In this document: one piece after another, positions 21,662 through 29,735 of the stretch
How the letters are laid out: each line of letters opens with the position of its first letter
Position numbering within the stretch: position 1 is the first letter of the stretch
Assembly: GCF_020906515.1 (NCBI RefSeq)
Contig: NC_085851.1
Span: 310,001 to 374,000, forward strand
Length of the DNA: 64,000 nucleotides
Direction: 5' to 3'
Source: Vanrija pseudolonga
Lineage: Eukaryota; Basidiomycota; Tremellomycetes; Trichosporonales; Trichosporonaceae
Translations under genes and position numbers: made by a program
The notes under the pieces: model-generated
The model's input: the letters and a program-made list of their open reading frames with translations, nothing else
What the model was told of the DNA's origin: nothing
The model's database searches: none

Positions 21662-23167
21662 ATGTCTCACCGCAAGGTGCGTAGCCTGCTCACAGCGGCA
21701 GTCGTGCCCAATCGATCCCTCTGCTCGCGCTCTCGCCGACTCGACCGACTCGCTCAACGTCTGCTGCTCGCCTCGCCCGATTGAAGATTTTGAGACGGAG
21801 GGAGGCCAAGGGATGGGGAGGAGAGATGGTGTGATGGCGGAGACGAGGCCTCGGATCGACACAGAGCGGCTTCTCTGCAGCCTCGAGCCTTCGACACCAA
21901 CACCGCTGGCAGCAGATTTGAGCGAGCAACTAGCACACGAGTCAACTTGCAGAGGGATCGACCTAGCGCACGACCCCAAACACAACCTCCCCACCACACT
22001 GCTAACACTTTTCAGTACGAGGAGCCTCGTTCGGGTTCGCTTGCCTTCCTTCCCCGCAAGCGTGCCGCCAAGCACCGCGGTTACATCAAGTCGTTCCCCA
22101 AGGATGACGCCAAGAAGCCCGTCCACCTCACTGCCACCCTTGGCTACAAGGCTGGCATGACCCACGTTGTCCGTGACCTCGACCGCCCCGGCTCGAAGAT
22201 GCACAAGCGTGAGGTTGTCGAGGCTGCCACCGTCGTCGAGACTCCCCCCGTCGTCGTTGTCGGTGTTGTCGGCTACGTCGAGACCCCCCGCGGTCTCCGT
22301 TCGCTCACCACCGTCTGGGCCGAGCACCTCTCCGACGAGGTCAAGCGTCGCTTCTACAAGAACTGGTACAAGTCCAAGAAGAAGGCCTTCACCCGTTACG
22401 CCAAGAAGCACGCCGAGAACAACGGCGCTTCGGTCGCCCGCGAGCTCGAGCGCATCAAGAAGTACGCTTCGGTTGTCCGCGTCCTTGTCCACACCCAGCT
22501 CTCCCTCACCGGCCTCAAGCAGAAGAAGGCCCACCTCGCCGAGGTCCAGGTCAACGGTGGCTCGATTGCCGACAAGGTCGAGTTCGCCAAGTCGCACTTT
22601 GAGAAGACCGTCTCGGTCGACCAGATCTTCGAGCAGGACGAGTGCATCGACGTTATCGGTGTTACCAAGGGTAAGGGTTACGCCGGTGTCATCTCCCGTT
22701 GGGGCGTGACCCGTCTTCCCCGCAAGACCCACCGTGGTCTCCGTAAGGTCGCCTGTATCGGTGCCTGGCACCCGTCCAAGGTCATGTTCTCGGTTGCTCG
22801 CTCTGGTCAGGACGGTTACCACCGCCGTACCACGATCAACCACAAGATCTACCGCATCTCGAACGGCTCGGACCCCAAGTCGGGCTCGACCGAGTTCGAC
22901 CTCACCGAGAAGACCATCAACCCCCTTGGTGGCTGGTCGCACTACCCCGACGTCAAGAACGACTTCCTCCTCGTCAAGGGTGCCCTCCCCGGTACCAAGA
23001 AGCGTGTCCTTACCCTCCGCAAGGCCCTCCGTGTCCACACTTCGCGTGCCCACCTTGAGAAGATCCAGCTCAAGTTCATCGACACCTCGTCGATCCTCGG
23101 CCACGGCAAGTACCAGACCCCCGAGGAGAAGGCCCAGTTCCTTGGCCAGCTCAAGATCAAGGCTTAA
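21662..23167 (+). CDS. RPL3: 60S ribosomal protein L3 (uL3)
   Basis: Exon 1 (21662-21676) encodes only MSHRK. A 339-nt intron follows and exon 2 is 22016-23167, giving 388 residues, the usual length. Diagnostic segments are [51 protein letters not shown], the W-finger region [15 protein letters not shown] near the peptidyl transferase centre, and [13 protein letters not shown] with the QDG loop before it. uL3 is a core large-subunit protein that shapes the peptidyl transferase centre and accompanies early ribosome assembly. Codon choice is strongly biased to C- or T-ended codons (GTC, CTC, AAG, CGT), as expected for high expression. The long first intron right after codon 5 is unlike the 35-60 nt introns elsewhere in the window. 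Confidence 0.98.
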
Positions 23168-23573: not shown

Positions 23574-24008
23574 ATGTCAATAGACTCGACGCTCCCCGAA
23601 CGGCCATCAGTGTACTGGCGCAACAGCCGGGACGAGGAGGAGGCCGACGTCGCGGCCGGCAAGGTGCCGCGCGACGAGGCGTTCATGGCGTCGCTCTTCC
23701 CGGACGCGATGCTCGACCCCCTCGAGCCGATCGAAGCAGCGTACGAGGCCGACGTGGCGGCGGCCACAGCGACTGGCAACGGCGAGAACACGTACCCCGC
23801 CCTCTATGCCGCCGTCGAGAAGGTCGTCCTCGCGCTCAACGACCTCAACGAGCAGGGCGAGGGCGCGTACATCGAGACGGGAGAGCGCGAGCGCCTCGCC
23901 GAGTGGATCGAGCAGGTGATTGAGGCGCGCGGCATCAGCATCAACGACATGGGCCGCGTGCTTGGCTTTGGGTCGGGCGAGATCACCGACGAGTGGCGCG
24001 ACTGGTAG
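23574..24008 (+). CDS. Cluster protein 1: short member of RPSxxW / PDA-domain family
   Basis: Single exon, 144 residues; the ATG at 23574 follows a CACCACCACACA leader. It carries the family core with almost no N-terminal extension: RPSVYWRNSRDEE, SLFPDAMLDPLEPI, AAYEADVAAA, LYAAVEKVVLALNDLNEQGE, YIETGERERLAEWIEQVIEA, and a C-terminal DEWRDW. Four more genes with the same core follow in tandem up to 28.3 kb. The core (predicted mostly helical) recalls bacterial DUF5713-type proteins, which also show YPD, an LN pair, IET..RE and a final R[DE]W; this comparison is from memory and unproven. The protein is acidic. Function unknown; it may represent the core-only form of the family. Confidence 0.8.
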   Translation: MSIDSTLPERPSVYWRNSRDEEEADVAAGKVPRDEAFMASLFPDAMLDPLEPIEAAYEADVAAATATGNGENTYPALYAAVEKVVLALNDLNEQGEGAYIETGERERLAEWIEQVIEARGISINDMGRVLGFGSGEITDEWRDW

Positions 24009-24182
24009 TGGTAGCTGGATGTATGGGTAGCCGGGGCTGGGTGACTGGACTCGACGCGGCCTCCTAACGCGGACCTCCACGGCTTGGCGCGGCGCGTCAA
24101 CAACGGGGGCAAATCGTGTGGCAGTTGGCGGGTGTTGCAACGACGAGTAGTCACTGACCGAGCACTGTGGTCACCGCTGGGT

Positions 24183-24231
24183 GGAGGAAGACGAGGAAGG
24201 CAAGAAAGACGGGGACGGCGAGGAAGACGGG
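24183..24231 (+). promoter_or_regulatory. Purine tract upstream of cluster gene 2
   Basis: A GAGGAAGAC/GAGGAAGGC-type run, followed within a few bases by GGTTGACGC, lies about 210 bases upstream of the ATG at 24441. A TATAAA follows at 24264-24269. The same purine module, at nearly the same distance, precedes cluster genes 4 and 5. Confidence 0.5.
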
Positions 24232-24440
24232 TGGTGGTTGACGCCCGAGTCGCGTCGCACACTTATAAACCATGCAACTCTCCTCACGTCATCTTCCTCC
24301 ACCTCTCCATCGCCCCGCCTTCCACACGGCCTCCCACTCTTCTTCTTCGTCCTTTACTCCCAGATCGACGCTCGCCGTCGATCCCCCAGACCCCCGCCGT
24401 GCACCCACCCTCCACCCTGAGCTCACCACACCGCCCCAGC

Positions 24441-25385
24441 ATGCCTGTCTACCGCACGAAGAAGGCCAAGCAGGCCGCCGCGGCCAAGGCCAAGGTCGCC
24501 CAACGCGGCTCGCAAGTCTCTACCGCCAAGGCCAACCCGGCGCGTCGCCCAACCCGCTCAACCACACCGCGTAGAGCGTCGCCCACCTTGGACAAGGTGG
24601 AAGATGCGGCCCCGTCAACCGAGGACGAGGAGATGCTGGAGGAAGAGGAGGAAGCCGAGGAGGAGGAGGAGGAGGAGGAAGAGGAGGAGGAGGAGAAGGC
24701 CGAGACGGCGGTGAAGGCGGAGAAGGCGGTGAAAGCGGAGAAGGCGGAGAAGGCGGAGAAGGCGGAGACGGCGGTGAAGGCGAAGAAGGCGGTGAAGGCG
24801 GAGAAGGAGGTGGAGGAGGAGCAGCTCACGCCCGCCGAGGCCGTGGCGAGGCGCGAGGCCAAGAAGGCAGCCGCTGCCCGTGCCAAGGCCGTTGCTGCCG
24901 GCAAGCTCAGGGAGTACGAGGCGAAACTCAAGAAGGAGGAGGAGGTGCAAAAGAAGGAGGACGCGCGGTACCGCAAGGAAGCGCTCGTTCACCGCCGCCC
25001 ATCGACGCGCTGGGCGATGCAGCGTAGCGACGAAGACGACAAGGTCGATGCAGGCAAGCTCAAGAAGCGAGACGCCGAGCTCGCCGACCGCTGGCCCGAC
25101 CGTTTCCTCGCGCCCCTCGAGCTCATCCTCCGCAAGTACGAGCGCGAGGTGGAGGCCGCCGCCGAGATCAAGAACGACGGCAAGTGCATCGCCGCCATCC
25201 GTCGGGCGGTGAAGAAGGTCGTCGTGGCGATCAACGACCTCGACTCCGGGCACAAGTACCCCTGGGTCCGCGAGCAGGAGCGCGAGGCACTCCTCGAGTA
25301 CGTCGAGGAGGTCGTTCAGGACGCCGGTGTCAAGCCGAAGGACGCGAGTGTCATGGAGCTGGTGGAGCAGTGGCGCGAGTGGTAG
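24441..25385 (+). CDS. Cluster protein 2: acidic and Lys-Ala-Glu repeat extension plus family core
   Basis: 314 residues from the ATG at 24441, which follows a TATAAA box by about 170 bases. The N-terminus is basic (PVYRTKKAKQAAAAKAKVAQ), then Ser/Thr/Pro/Arg-rich, then a run of more than 20 mostly glutamate residues (about 72-92), then KAEKA/ETAVKA repeats and a charged coiled-coil-like helix to about residue 190. The family core follows: RRPSTRWAMQRSDEDD, DRWPDRFLAPLELILRKYER, RRAVKKVVVAINDLDSG, EREALLEYVEEVVQDAGV and a final EQWREW. The alternation of basic and very acidic tracts is typical of chromatin-associated or histone-chaperone-like proteins, which fits the histone-tail copies in sister genes; this is inference. 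The open frame continues upstream of the ATG but through the TATA region, so the inner start is preferred. Confidence 0.75.
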   Translation: MPVYRTKKAKQAAAAKAKVAQRGSQVSTAKANPARRPTRSTTPRRASPTLDKVEDAAPSTEDEEMLEEEEEAEEEEEEEEEEEEEKAETAVKAEKAVKAEKAEKAEKAETAVKAKKAVKAEKEVEEEQLTPAEAVARREAKKAAAARAKAVAAGKLREYEAKLKKEEEVQKKEDARYRKEALVHRRPSTRWAMQRSDEDDKVDAGKLKKRDAELADRWPDRFLAPLELILRKYEREVEAAAEIKNDGKCIAAIRRAVKKVVVAINDLDSGHKYPWVREQEREALLEYVEEVVQDAGVKPKDASVMELVEQWREW

Positions 25386-25735
25386 TCCGAGGTGGGTGGG
25401 AGCGTGACGAACGCGACGTGGCTGACGCGACGAAGCCCGAAGCCATTGACCGATGAGGGGCACCGAGAGATGACTGAGAACCGCACTTTCATAGACATTG
25501 TTGTATCCCAATCCCAGGGCGCATAACAGCCGACAGCTTCATGTATCTAATTGCTCGTCATGAGGGAATCTCGTCGTGCCCACGGCTGAGAGGAGCAGCG
25601 TGGACGCCCCGTCGATCCCGTCGAGTCGTCCCTCTGGGTTCCACGCACACCCTCTTCCCCTCCTCCCACTCACCAACTCACCTCGGCCTTCCTCCTCCGC
25701 ACCACACCGCACCCTCACCCTCGTCGTCACACGCC
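25386..25735. other. Intergenic region between cluster genes 2 and 3
   Basis: About 350 bases. It ends in a CT/CAC-rich leader directly before the ATG at 25736. No purine tract was seen. Confidence 0.5.
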
Positions 25736-26192
25736 ATGCCCAACACCCACATCCCCACGAAGCAGACGGCACGCAAGGTCACAGGCGGCAAGGTACCCAA
25801 GCCGTACACCCCACCCGAGAGGCCGGCGCCCAAGAAGCCCGTCCGCCCGTCGACGATCTGGCGCGCAACCCGTGATGAAGACGACGACCTCAAGCCCCGA
25901 CGCGTTCCTCGACCCGCTTGACACCCTGATAGACTGGTTCGAGCTCAGCATCGCGCAGATCACGGCCGTGGCAACCGACTCGCGCTGCTTCAAGAAGGTC
26001 AAGTGGGTCGTCAAGCACCTCGTCCTCCGCCTCAACGAGCTCAACGAGTACGAGGAGTACATCGAGACGGGCGAGCGCGAGGACCTGCTCGAGTACATCG
26101 ACGACGTGATTGCCTATGCTGGCGTCAATATCGACGCGCTCAACACTGCGTTTGAGTGCGACTGCCTCGCGGACAACTGGCGCGACTGGTAG
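25736..26192 (+). pseudogene. Cluster protein 3: degenerate H3-tail-like N-terminus, frame broken before the core
   Basis: The frame from the ATG at 25736 reads MPNTHIPTKQTARKVTGGKV, in which TKQTARK and TGGK match histone H3 residues 3-9 and 11-14. A basic proline-rich linker and the family lead-in RPSTIWRATRDEDDD follow. After about base 25885 the family similarity moves to another frame (SPDAFLDPLDTLIDWFELSI, LVLRLNELNEYEEYIETGER, and a final DNWRDW ending at 26192), while the original frame stops at 25921. No GT..AG pair of usable length joins the two without removing conserved residues, so a single-base frameshift is the simplest reading. It may be a young pseudogene, an assembly error or a shifted reading. 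The core downstream is otherwise intact, which argues that any decay is recent. Confidence 0.6.
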
Positions 26193-26640
26193 CGTCGTAA
26201 AGTAGGTTGGGCAATGGAGGCTGTGACTGACGACCGCAGCACCAGAGCAATCACGGCTCCAATCACATACCATTCCGCCACACGGACGGCCACTCAACAC
26301 GGACATTCTGGATGCACTGCAGGCGTATACGGAGAGCCCAGTCGGCATGTATACATTGACTTTCATGAGGGCCTGGGTGGCGGAGGAAGGGAGGGAAGGC
26401 GAGGAAGACGACGCGGTTGACTCACCAGTCGGCACGCCATATATCTGCCGTGCGTCTCCTCCTCCTCGTCCTCGTTCTCTGCATCACCCATCTTCCAACA
26501 ACAACAACACCATCGCTCTCTCAACGTCTCCTGACCAACTGCACACCTCCCACCTGCTCTACACCATTATCATCGCCTTGGCTCTCTGGGCCCTCGTGCC
26601 CCGACTCCCACCGACACCCACTCCCACTGCACCCCCCACT
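26193..26640. other. Intergenic region, promoter of cluster gene 4
   Basis: About 450 bases. It contains the shared purine module (26381-26410), a TATA-like CATATATC near 26439, and a CA/CT-rich leader before the ATG at 26641. Confidence 0.5.
26381..26410 (+). promoter_or_regulatory. Purine tract upstream of cluster gene 4
   Basis: A GGAGGAAGGGAGGGAAGGC..GAGGAAGACG run, followed at 26415-26426 by GGTTGACTCACC. It lies about 230 bases before the ATG at 26641. Position and order match the modules upstream of cluster genes 2 and 5. Confidence 0.5.
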
Positions 26641-27216
26641 ATGAGGGACCCCTCCACCACCAAGCTCGCCACCAGCAAGGACGCCGCCAAGTCGGTTTCG
26701 GTTGGCACCAAGTCTCCTCGCGGGTGGCTCCCCACGAGCAACAAACGTCGCCATGACTCTCCCTACTCGAGGTCCACCAGCCCCGAGAGCACCGACTCCG
26801 TCCCGCCGTACTCTTACAAGAAGCTCCGTCGACCCTCGGCCATCTGGCGCGCCGAGCGCGAGAAGGAGGCCGCCCGTTTGGCCGCCCGCGACCTGGACCC
26901 CGCGAACGCATACGCGTTCAGCCTGTACCCCGACGCGTTCCTCAACCCGCTACACCTCATGCTGCGCCAGTTCGAGGCCGACGTGGCGGCGGCCGTGTCT
27001 ACCAACCCCGACCTTCACATCGTGTCGATCTACGTCTGCATCAAGCGGCTCGTCCTCGGGCTCAACAGCCTCGAAAAGTGGATCAAGGGAGACGAGCGTG
27101 AGATCCTCATCGAGTACATCGGCAATGTGGTCGAACATGCCGGCGTGGACCGTTTCGACATGATGGAGGAGTTTGGGGACGCGGCGGACATGGTTGAAAA
27201 GTGGTGCAAGTGGTGA
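26641..27216 (+). CDS. Cluster protein 4: basic Ser/Lys-rich extension plus family core
   Basis: 191 residues from the ATG at 26641. The N-terminal 70 residues are basic and Ser/Thr-rich and include TKLATSKDAAKSVSVGTK, which can be aligned loosely with histone H3 residues 18-28 (KQLATKAARKS); this is suggestive only. A bipartite-like KRRHD and KKLRRPSAIWRAEREKEAAR lead into the core: FSLYPDAFLNPLHLMLRQFE, ADVAAAVSTNPDL, IKRLVLGLNSLEKWIKGDER, EILIEYIGNVVEHAGV and a C-terminal VEKWCKW. The stop at 27214-27216 is followed two bases later by a GTGAGT..GCCCAG intron-like segment (27219-27260), in the same place as in cluster gene 5. The purine module lies upstream. Function unknown. Confidence 0.75.
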   Translation: MRDPSTTKLATSKDAAKSVSVGTKSPRGWLPTSNKRRHDSPYSRSTSPESTDSVPPYSYKKLRRPSAIWRAEREKEAARLAARDLDPANAYAFSLYPDAFLNPLHLMLRQFEADVAAAVSTNPDLHIVSIYVCIKRLVLGLNSLEKWIKGDEREILIEYIGNVVEHAGVDRFDMMEEFGDAADMVEKWCKW

Positions 27217-27787
27217 TGGTGAGTCGGCGGGCTGGAGGGGCGACGCGCTGACTTGCCCAGAGGCGACGAGACAGCAACGCGGCAACGACGAAACGTACCC
27301 AAGCCACGACACTATGTGAGCTACGACACACGATCAAGCACCCTCAGTACATAGGAACTGTTGAATACATGGACACTGTTTGTAGAAAGAGCGGGATGTC
27401 ATACGTCTAATGGGCGCCACACTCGCCACCCACCACTCGCACTGGACAACTTGGGTGAAGGAAGGTGAGCGGGATGGGGTCACAGGGGAGACGAGGAAGA
27501 CGAGGAAGGCGAGGAAGGTCTGGAAGGCAATGAAGACAACAGAGAGGGAAGACGAGGAAGACGAGGAAGACAAGGCAGGCGAGGAAGACGCGACCGGTCC
27601 ACTCACCATCCCAGGCTGCACTTGGCCTCGACCGGCTTTATCCTCACCCTCTCGCCTTCCACTCATCCTCTCTTCTCACCTGCTCTCTTCTCATCTCTTC
27701 TTCCTCCCCTCTCCTTCTCCAGGACGGTTCGCGCGTCGGCTCATACCCTCTCTGCGTTCGGCAAGACCCAGATCGCGCCCCAACACA
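27217..27787. other. Intergenic region, promoter of cluster gene 5
   Basis: About 570 bases: the 3' UTR of cluster gene 4 with a probable UTR intron (27219-27260), the purine module (27488-27590), and a CT-rich leader. Confidence 0.5.
27488..27590 (+). promoter_or_regulatory. Long GAGGAAGAC purine tract upstream of the H3-tail gene
   Basis: About 100 bases made largely of GAGGAAGAC/GAGGAAGGC units, followed at 27596-27607 by GGTCCACTCACC. It lies about 200 bases before the ATG at 27788 and is the longest version of the module shared with cluster genes 2 and 4. It could bind a GAGA-type or other purine-tract factor, or form an unusual purine/pyrimidine helix. Confidence 0.5.
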
Positions 27788-28255
27788 ATGGCCCGCACCA
27801 AGCAGACAGCGAGGAAGAGCACGGGGGGGAAGGCTCCTCGAAAGCAACTGGCCCCCCAGAAGCCACGTCGGCCGTCGGCAGACTGGTGCGACAGCCGTGC
27901 AAGCGAAGCCGCCCGTTTGGCCGCCGGCGAGCTCCTCCCGCGCTACGCCTGGGCCTCGGAGACGTACCCCGACGCCTTCCTCGAGCCCCTCGACGCGATG
28001 CTGTCCGCGTTCGAGGAAGACGTGGCGCTCGCCGTTACGACCGTCCCCGAGCTTCGCATCGTTTGCGTCTACCCCTGCATCAAGAAGCTCGTGCTCTCGC
28101 TCAACACTCTCGAAAAGTACATTAGTGGCGACGAGCGCGAGGATCTCATCGAGTACATGCGCAAAGTGATCGAGTTCGCTGGCATCCGCTCCGAGGACAT
28201 GGAAGCGGAGTTTGGGAGGGTCGAGGAAGTCCTCGAGAGATGGTGGGAGTACTGA
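27788..28255 (+). CDS. Cluster protein 5: histone H3 tail copy fused to the family core
   Basis: 155 residues, single exon. After the initiator Met the protein reads ARTKQTARKSTGGKAPRKQL and then A: identical to histone H3 residues 1-21 (K4, K9, S10, K14 and K18 all present). It diverges at once into PQKPRRPSADW, the family lead-in motif. The rest is the family core: WASETYPDAFLEPLDAMLSA, FEEDVALAV, CIKKLVLSLNTLEKYISGDE, REDLIEYMRKVIEFAG and a final LERWWEY. There is no histone fold, so this is not an H3 gene. Methionine removal before Ala would expose a free H3-like N-terminus. Codons in the tail (AGG, AGC, GGG GGG, CGA, CAA) are unlike those of highly expressed genes here, so it is not a fresh copy of an H3 gene. 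I infer a histone-tail mimic that could engage H3 readers or modifiers. Confidence 0.8.
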   Translation: MARTKQTARKSTGGKAPRKQLAPQKPRRPSADWCDSRASEAARLAAGELLPRYAWASETYPDAFLEPLDAMLSAFEEDVALAVTTVPELRIVCVYPCIKKLVLSLNTLEKYISGDEREDLIEYMRKVIEFAGIRSEDMEAEFGRVEEVLERWWEY

Positions 28256-29735
28256 TTGTGAGTGTGGCAACTGGAGGCGCACGCTGACTTTCCCAGAGGT
28301 TACGAGACGCCAACAACGAACCGCACTTGTACTGGGCTACCGGACATGCATGTACAAGTTCTTCATGTGCAGAGCATACGAGGGGGCTGCCAAGTACATG
28401 ACACGTTTGACGCGCCTTGTCCACATAGGAGGGGTCTGCACACGCATGTACATTCTGTATGTACATGCGTGTACTCGGCGAGATCCACGGCTGTTTTCTT
28501 CGCGAACAGAGGATCTTGCGAAGCCGTTCGATCGGATGCTGTCCGTTCTCGTGCCACATGGCGACGAGATCGCTGGACGGCCGAAATTGGAGGTCTCGGT
28601 GAGCCTCGAAGACGCCACGCCTCACCAGGGCTGCTCGCAGGGAGGCCAGTGTTGGGATCATGGCGTCGATCGTCGCGAACAGCGAGGACACACACCAGCT
28701 GCACCGGAACCTGTTAATGGCCCAGAGCTCTGTTGCCACATTGGTGGGGCTTGCTAGGCGGAATGGGGCTCCGTGAGCTGCGTGTGCCATCATCGAGCAG
28801 GAGAGGGGGTGGTTGGCCTCTCCGCCGAAGTACATTGGCAACCCGGTCGCCTCGTCGATGATGCCCGTGGCCCCATCATGACGCTCGTACCCTTGTCGCC
28901 GAATGACCTCGATCAAGTACGTGTACAGGGCGAGCTCGTCGTCCTCGAGTCGCCACGGGTAATCCTTCCCGCAAGCTTCACGTGCTCGCCAAATGGCGCA
29001 GCACAGGAAGGTCGCGATCTGGTTGGTCGTGGTCTGGTCCTTGAACATCAGGACCGCCACACCATCCGAGTTGCACTTGACGAGTGGGTTGCTGTACGCT
29101 GTAGAGCGGTATCTCTCCAGTCGCACTTGAACGCCCTCGACTAGGTCTGTGGGGTCCTTGTAATGGTATCGGTCAATGACCCCTTCCACGTCCGGCTCGG
29201 GGAGCGCTGAGAGCCACTATGGCTCGTCAGCCGAGGTGGCGGTGGGGCCGTAGAGCCATGCCTCGAATGCCGTGAGAGTGTCGCGAGCGGTAGCCTTGTT
29301 TTGATCGCCAATGCCCAGCCGGTTGCAGGCAGCTTGGTGGATCGGCGCGAGTCGACAGAGGATTCCAGCAATGGGTCTGGTATCCTCGCCGTCCGGAGCT
29401 TGGCATTCGACAATGGCGAGGAGGATGAGCAGCGCCACCATGTCCAGGCCGCCACCCTTCACAAAGTTGTATGCTGTGGGGACGAGGCGGACGTTGCCGG
29501 GGGAGTGTGTGGGGAACGGCAAGTCCGACTGCACAAGTTGGTTGACGAGGTCCGGCGATGGTGCGGTCGCCCTCTGGCTATCGGCAACGTTGAGGGCGTG
29601 CTGGATCTCGCTTGGCACCATCTCACTGAGACTCAAAGTGTCCCAGTTGGTGGCTGTTCCCGATCCGTATGGAGCTATGGGTCAGTAGGAGCAAGAACTA
29701 ATGCACCTACCTGGTCCATCGACGCTTGGTCCCAT
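28146..29735 (-). CDS. Unrecognised protein with an in-frame TAG
   Basis: Exon 1 (29735-29711, MGPSVDGP) is joined by a 36-nt intron to a long frame starting at 29674. The frame runs through NWDTLSLSEMVPSEI, KGGGLDMVALLILLAIVEC and LTAFEAWLYGPTATSADEP to a TAG at 29219-29217. It then continues in the same frame as WLSALPEPDVEGVIDRYHYK, PLVKCNSDGVAVLMFKDQTT, IATFLCCAIWRAREACG and WCVSSLFATIDAMIP until a stop at 28146. No donor site lies close enough upstream to remove the TAG by splicing. Both halves have clean protein-like composition, so the stop looks like a recent nonsense change, a read-through codon or a sequence error. The far 3' end overlaps the 3' end of the H3-tail gene in antisense; the true C-terminus is unclear. 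No domain recognised. Confidence 0.5.
28440..28472. repeat. Perfect 14-bp inverted repeat (hairpin) between convergent genes
   Basis: Left arm ACACGCATGTACAT (28440-28453), loop TCTGT, right arm ATGTACATGCGTGT (28459-28472). Additional CATGTACA/GTACATG copies lie at about 28345-28400. It sits just downstream of the H3-tail gene and within the antisense 3' part of the neighbouring gene, where it could act in 3' end formation of either transcript. Confidence 0.75.

Follow-up and report, generated by a model that had tools for sequence, protein, structure and literature searches.

Candidate histone H3-tail mimic fused to a bacterial-type helical module in Vanrija pseudolonga

The 64,000-nucleotide stretch analyzed here (the window), from the genome of the yeast-like fungus Vanrija pseudolonga (Trichosporonales), contains a gene, m5, whose product is, on balance, best read as an endogenous histone H3-tail mimic fused to a bacterial-type helical module. 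The translated reading frame opens with MARTKQTARKSTGGKAPRKQLAPQKPRRPSADW, and the residues after the Met, ARTKQTARKSTGGKAPRKQLA, are identical at all 21 positions to residues 1-21 of H3 as encoded by two genes of the same genome (C1 and C2). Chance can be excluded as the source of this likeness, since the local score of 103 was reached in 0 of 5000 shuffles. A Pfam scan of m5 gave no match to the histone fold domain (PF00125) at E<=10, and AlphaFold2 predicts helices behind the tail. Both structural claims of the preliminary description, (i) that m5 after its Met reads as H3 residues 1-21 and (ii) that a non-histone helical domain follows, were thus borne out. The features discussed below are listed in Table 1.

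Table 1. Location of m5, its parts and its paralogs in the window
Feature	Position	Strand	Description
m1	23574..24008	+	Paralog without basic tail, laid out like the bacterial proteins; PF18977 score 20.3 bits against a cut-off of 27.3
m2	24441..25385	+	Paralog with a long Lys/Ala/Glu-rich tail; H3 match not significant (1842/5000 shuffles)
m3	25736..26192	+	Paralog with a decayed H3 tail; frame change near the CCCC run 25895-25898
m3 tail, TKQTARKVTGGKVPK	25757..25801	+	12/15 identical to H3 3-17; 0/5000 shuffles
m4	26641..27216	+	Nearest paralog of m5 in the genome, core 58% identical; basic tail with marginal H3 likeness (139/5000 shuffles)
m5	27788..28255	+	155-aa protein, H3(1-21) tail and helical DUF5713-like core
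H3 tail of m5, ARTKQTARKSTGGKAPRKQLA	27791..27853	+	21 codons, 13 differing from the compared H3 genes, all synonymous
m5 core, residues 27-155	27866..28252	+	Predicted all-helical; related to bacterial DUF5713-like proteins

The H3 motif of m5 directly follows a Met, and the frame is open farther upstream, up to a stop at 27383, with additional in-frame ATGs at 27410 and 27530. Because of these ATGs, we can only infer that the N-terminus is free at the H3-type Ala after removal of the Met. A start at 27788 is favored by its context (A at -3 and G at +4) and by the retention of the Met of H3 itself, as well as by the database sequences P0002 and P0004, which start at the same Met.

Codons of the tail are informative about its age. 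Over 22 codons including the Met, m5 differs from the C1 H3 gene at 13 and from the C2 gene at 15, all differences being synonymous, and these two H3 genes differ from each other at 6 of the same codons. In comparison with three H3 genes (C1, C2, and C7, the last covering 19 of the 21 tail codons, so that the final two were compared with two genes), m5 has 13 private codons among the 21 of its tail, corresponding to 15 nucleotides and 0 nonsynonymous changes. About 27-31% of random changes are expected to be synonymous under neutrality. The resulting probability that all private changes are synonymous is 3e-9 to 2e-8; this figure treats changes as independent and places the private ones on the m5 branch, while some may belong to an unknown source gene. 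Since all 15 private nucleotide differences are synonymous, the tail is apparently an old copy, held at the protein level in the V. pseudolonga lineage. Near-identical nucleotides were not found, in agreement with the earlier claim that the tail is no fresh copy of a local H3 gene. The H3 genes themselves carry introns, in codon 20 in the C2 (L007) and C7 (L018) genes and near codon 56 in the C1 gene (L006); when read by eye, the C7 gene has further introns one base past the start codon and after K4.

The remark that tail codons are unlike those of highly expressed genes also agrees with the data. Codons AGG, GGG, CGA, CAA, ACA, and GCG occur 0 times, and AGC once, among 1003 codons of the RPL3 and MET6 reference, and the codon adaptation index is 0.109 for the m5 tail, 0.305 for the m5 core, and 0.704 for the C1 H3 tail. 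For the array of paralogs in which m5 resides, codon choice in the tail is not clearly unusual, with a simulated P of 0.11 under the usage of the m5 core and 0.03 under that of four array genes. Thus, the synonymous sites of the tail seem to have reached equilibrium with the codon usage of the array, which points to an old separation from H3. A distinctly improbable alternative is that the tail was captured recently from some other H3 gene with codons that were different from the outset, belonging to another species or to a local paralog since lost, so that no selection in m5 needs to be invoked. It draws on the scope of the comparison, which took in three H3 genes of the V. pseudolonga genome. 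However, the resemblance of the tail codons to array usage is expected after long residence, and P0002 in a relative already bears a diverged tail on an orthologous core.

Five paralogs, m1-m5, are arranged in tandem, head to tail, at 23574-28255 after RPL3 (22157-23167), with m5 in last place. Beyond the array lie a 300-aa minus-strand open reading frame (28146-29048), which overlaps the end of m5 and has no Pfam match at E<=0.01, an open reading frame with a Rad51 match, and methionine synthase. In m2, a long low-complexity Glu/Lys/Ala stretch separates the basic start from the core. The frame change in m3 may be a sequencing error, a real frameshift, or a true intron; sequence surrounding the CCCC run is missing from the source annotation LOC62_03G003676 (P0131), as though it had been taken for an intron. 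A search of the 24.87 Mb genome with the m5 protein gave 8 matches. Five are the genes of the array, one is another part of m3, at C3:335757 on the contig of the window (C3, 4,264,791 bases), and two are the beginnings of H3 genes. With m1 as query, the five array genes came up again together with one weak match (E 0.229); with the PF18977 profile, m1 was hit at E 0.0115 and a single other place weakly, at E 0.671. Since the m1 and PF18977 searches add only weak places elsewhere, the family appears to be confined to the array in V. pseudolonga. The m1-like protein P0129, encoded on contigs of up to 29932 bases, may mark the presence of the array in a further species.

The cores of these proteins lead to bacteria. 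In a profile search with the core, 90 proteins scored at E<=1 among 4277 candidates. The matches include three proteins that carry PF18977 (DUF5713), P0135 (E 8e-23), P0137 (1e-21), and P0138 (2e-21), one of them from Chitinivorax, and the Actinoplanes protein P0136 (3e-22), itself without a Pfam match at E<=1. A 23-row alignment has invariant W, P, E, E, L, G, and W; together with the profile matches, it indicates homology to DUF5713 members over the whole domain. The PF18977 cut-off of 27.3 bits is reached by the bacterial relatives P0135 (28.8) and P0138 (27.3). It is not reached by m1, by P0129 (21.4), or by P0128 from V. albida (23.2), the best score among the fungal-type cores scanned, and the Pfam scan gave no PF18977 match in m5, P0002, and P0004. 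Because of these scores, the fungal proteins scanned are here termed relatives rather than members of DUF5713.

When one peptide pattern was run against bacterial and archaeal genomes, with identities calculated to the metagenomic protein P0132, 62 loci were found. The first 14 listed of these (L020-L033) belong, by title, to Streptomyces, Kitasatospora, Actinoplanes, and other Actinomycetota. Thus, judged by sequence comparison, the m1-m5 cores are distantly related to bacterial DUF5713-like proteins, many of them actinobacterial, and this relationship makes horizontal transfer from bacteria to the Vanrija lineage likely. Among the minority of rows with a species name in the homologue searches, which were limited to proteins with exact word matches to the query, none is from a fungus outside Vanrija. 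A tree of 32 selected proteins places the 12 Vanrija-type rows (including P0129) on one side of a branch with support 96/91, and the m1, m3, m4, and m5 groups each hold together across species.

The AlphaFold2 model of m5, built from a 32-row alignment, has a mean pLDDT of 89.9 over the whole model. Confidence is lower at the start (59 for residues 1-10 and 74 for residues 11-20), exceeds 90 in the blocks covering residues 21-140, and then falls to 83 and 72. The protein is thus predicted to consist of a flexible arm (residues 1-20, the less certain part of the model) and a helical core. Comparison of the model with solved and viral structures gave no convincing fold match and none that assigns a function to the core. 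In the m4 and m5 groups, GDERE or GDEHE stands in place of the (I/Y)ET(G/D)ERE motif seen in m1, m3, and the bacterial proteins examined, and the fold-forming residues remain. Based on this combination, we lean weakly towards a protein-binding module rather than an enzyme.

H3-type tails occur in relatives of m5 as well. Looking for the tail in related species had been proposed in the preliminary description, and it is present in both V. albida and a metagenome. The metagenomic protein P0002, of the m5 lineage, matches H3 1-21 at 14 of 21 positions (0/5000 shuffles) and retains A1-T6, R8, K9, G12-K14, P16, R17, and A21. The V. albida protein P0004, of the m3 lineage, has 19 of its first 20 residues as in H3, with R2-L20 exact (0/5000). 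In m3 of V. pseudolonga the H3-like start is changed or lost, and the tail of its metagenomic ortholog P0130 is not significantly H3-like (962/5000); other shuffle results are 86/5000 for P0126 and 1725/5000 for m1. Clearly H3-derived tails were therefore found in 4 of 9 proteins tested (m5, P0002, P0004, and m3), on two paralog lineages, m5 and m3; the m1-type proteins P0127, P0128, and P0129 lack a long tail and were left out of this test. The tails may result from one capture followed by losses or from two captures.

Of the four clearly H3-derived tails, two are eroded. The loss of the H3-like start in m3 and the tail of P0130 indicate that the tail is dispensable in some copies, and eroded tails together with P0130 count against a uniform tail function across the family. 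They could also suggest evolutionary debris, that is, a weakly constrained or unconstrained fusion in a birth-and-death array, caught before its decay. The frame change and damaged tail of m3 and the absence of a significant H3 tail in P0130 are what such an account would draw on; the 15 synonymous and 0 nonsynonymous private changes in m5 make it very improbable. Hence the earlier proposal of a selected mimic stood in one part, the H3-derived tail with synonymous-only divergence, and is weakened in another by the erosion of the tail in some relatives. The case for it is that of one gene in one genome, because an upstream start is possible, the m3 tail has decayed, and between m5 and P0002 conservation of the tail (14/21) does not exceed that of the core (77%).

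Another possibility is that the tail has been kept solely for nuclear import: the H3 N-terminus serves Kap123 as a signal, and the array proteins would do no more than carry basic tails. In the Kap123 study, H3 1-28 is a nuclear localization signal, with key lysines K14 and K23, and the consensus is small hydrophobic-K-small hydrophobic-(X)6 or more-K (PMC5677370). Here, m5 has K14 within GKA and a lysine ten residues on (K24), and other Lys/Arg-rich tails are present on m2 and m4. However, such a signal would require neither 21 of 21 residues nor the R2-T6 segment kept by m5, P0002, and P0004, and in P0002 GKA is replaced by GKR, which lies outside the consensus as printed in that study (PMC5677370). 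Import as the sole function therefore appears unlikely, if still worth weighing. Because R2-T6, R8, K9, G12-K14, P16, and R17 of H3 are kept in m5, P0002, and P0004, the pattern, in these three sequences, fits recognition by H3 readers and writers better than import alone.

The mimic reading suggests the following scenario. A bacterial-type DUF5713-like gene would have entered the Vanrija lineage and duplicated in tandem, and at least one copy would have acquired an in-frame H3 gene start together with its Met. After removal of the Met, the free ARTKQTARKSTGGKAPRKQLA would form a flexible arm on a compact helical domain, and this arm would be recognized by readers, writers, and carriers of the H3 tail. 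As an outcome, the m5 core may be brought to H3-tail binders, or those binders may be titrated. We infer nuclear location and binding of m5. Residues 2-22 of m5 match the 21-residue H3.1 chain of a solved structure (4lk9 chain B), and the V. pseudolonga genome has 6 chromo and 12 SET matches, which do not single out H3 enzymes. More tentatively, and with some doubt, we suggest that a domesticated bacterial domain was made a dedicated chromatin ligand by fusion to an H3 gene start (perhaps the first exon). The authentic H3 N-termini of the family, selected in some copies and remodelled in others, would then either compete with the cell's machinery for reading and writing H3K4/H3K9 or plug into it.

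If true, m5 would offer a natural test of how the H3 tail acts off the nucleosome, of the writers and readers that engage it there, and of a possible cellular use of free H3-like tails as decoys or adaptors. Joining of an H3 start to a horizontally acquired domain would be a suggested route to such mimics. Antibodies to the H3 N-terminus might detect a band near 17 kDa in Vanrija.

One close comparison is with PAF15/PCLAF (PF15715), which, like m5, is a non-histone protein whose N-terminus resembles the start of H3; this N-terminus binds the PHD finger of UHRF1, a reader of H3 residues 1-4, with a Kd of 2.2 μM compared to 1.5 μM for H3 (PMC7060239). By this precedent, a non-histone N-terminus can bind an H3 reader about as well as H3 itself. 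The alignment of the PF15715 profile to m5 residues 1-31 is weak (E 0.073), and m5 stays below the cut-off of the profile (14.3 versus 23.4 bits). No PIP box for PCNA, Qxx(I/L/M)xx(F/Y/H/W)(F/Y/W), was seen by eye at any of the glutamines of m5. Unlike PAF15, m5 carries a 21/21 copy, placed on a predicted structured helical domain.

The G9a/EHMT2-methylated mimics WIZ, LIG1, CDYL, and ACINUS are, like m5, non-histones with an H3K9-like linear motif; their motifs were analyzed as segments of about 10 residues, whereas m5 has the whole of H3 1-21 at the protein start (PMC10611923). With the bacterial DUF5713 (PF18977) family m5 shares a core that is alignable end to end with DUF5713-like proteins, but those examined show no H3 tail. 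To our knowledge, cellular H3 mimics are short or partial, and among the open-access papers listed in searches aimed at such mimics, titles and the beginnings of abstracts mention no fungal non-histone protein with a fused H3 tail. The ascomycete Sarocladium strictum encodes a 261-aa protein, CC79DRAFT_544663 (P0050), whose remaining 239 residues have no Pfam match above cut-off. It opens with MARTKQTARKSTGGKAPRKQLA, exactly H3 1-21, followed by non-histone sequence, and is apparently a second, independent fungal case of an H3 tail on a non-histone protein.
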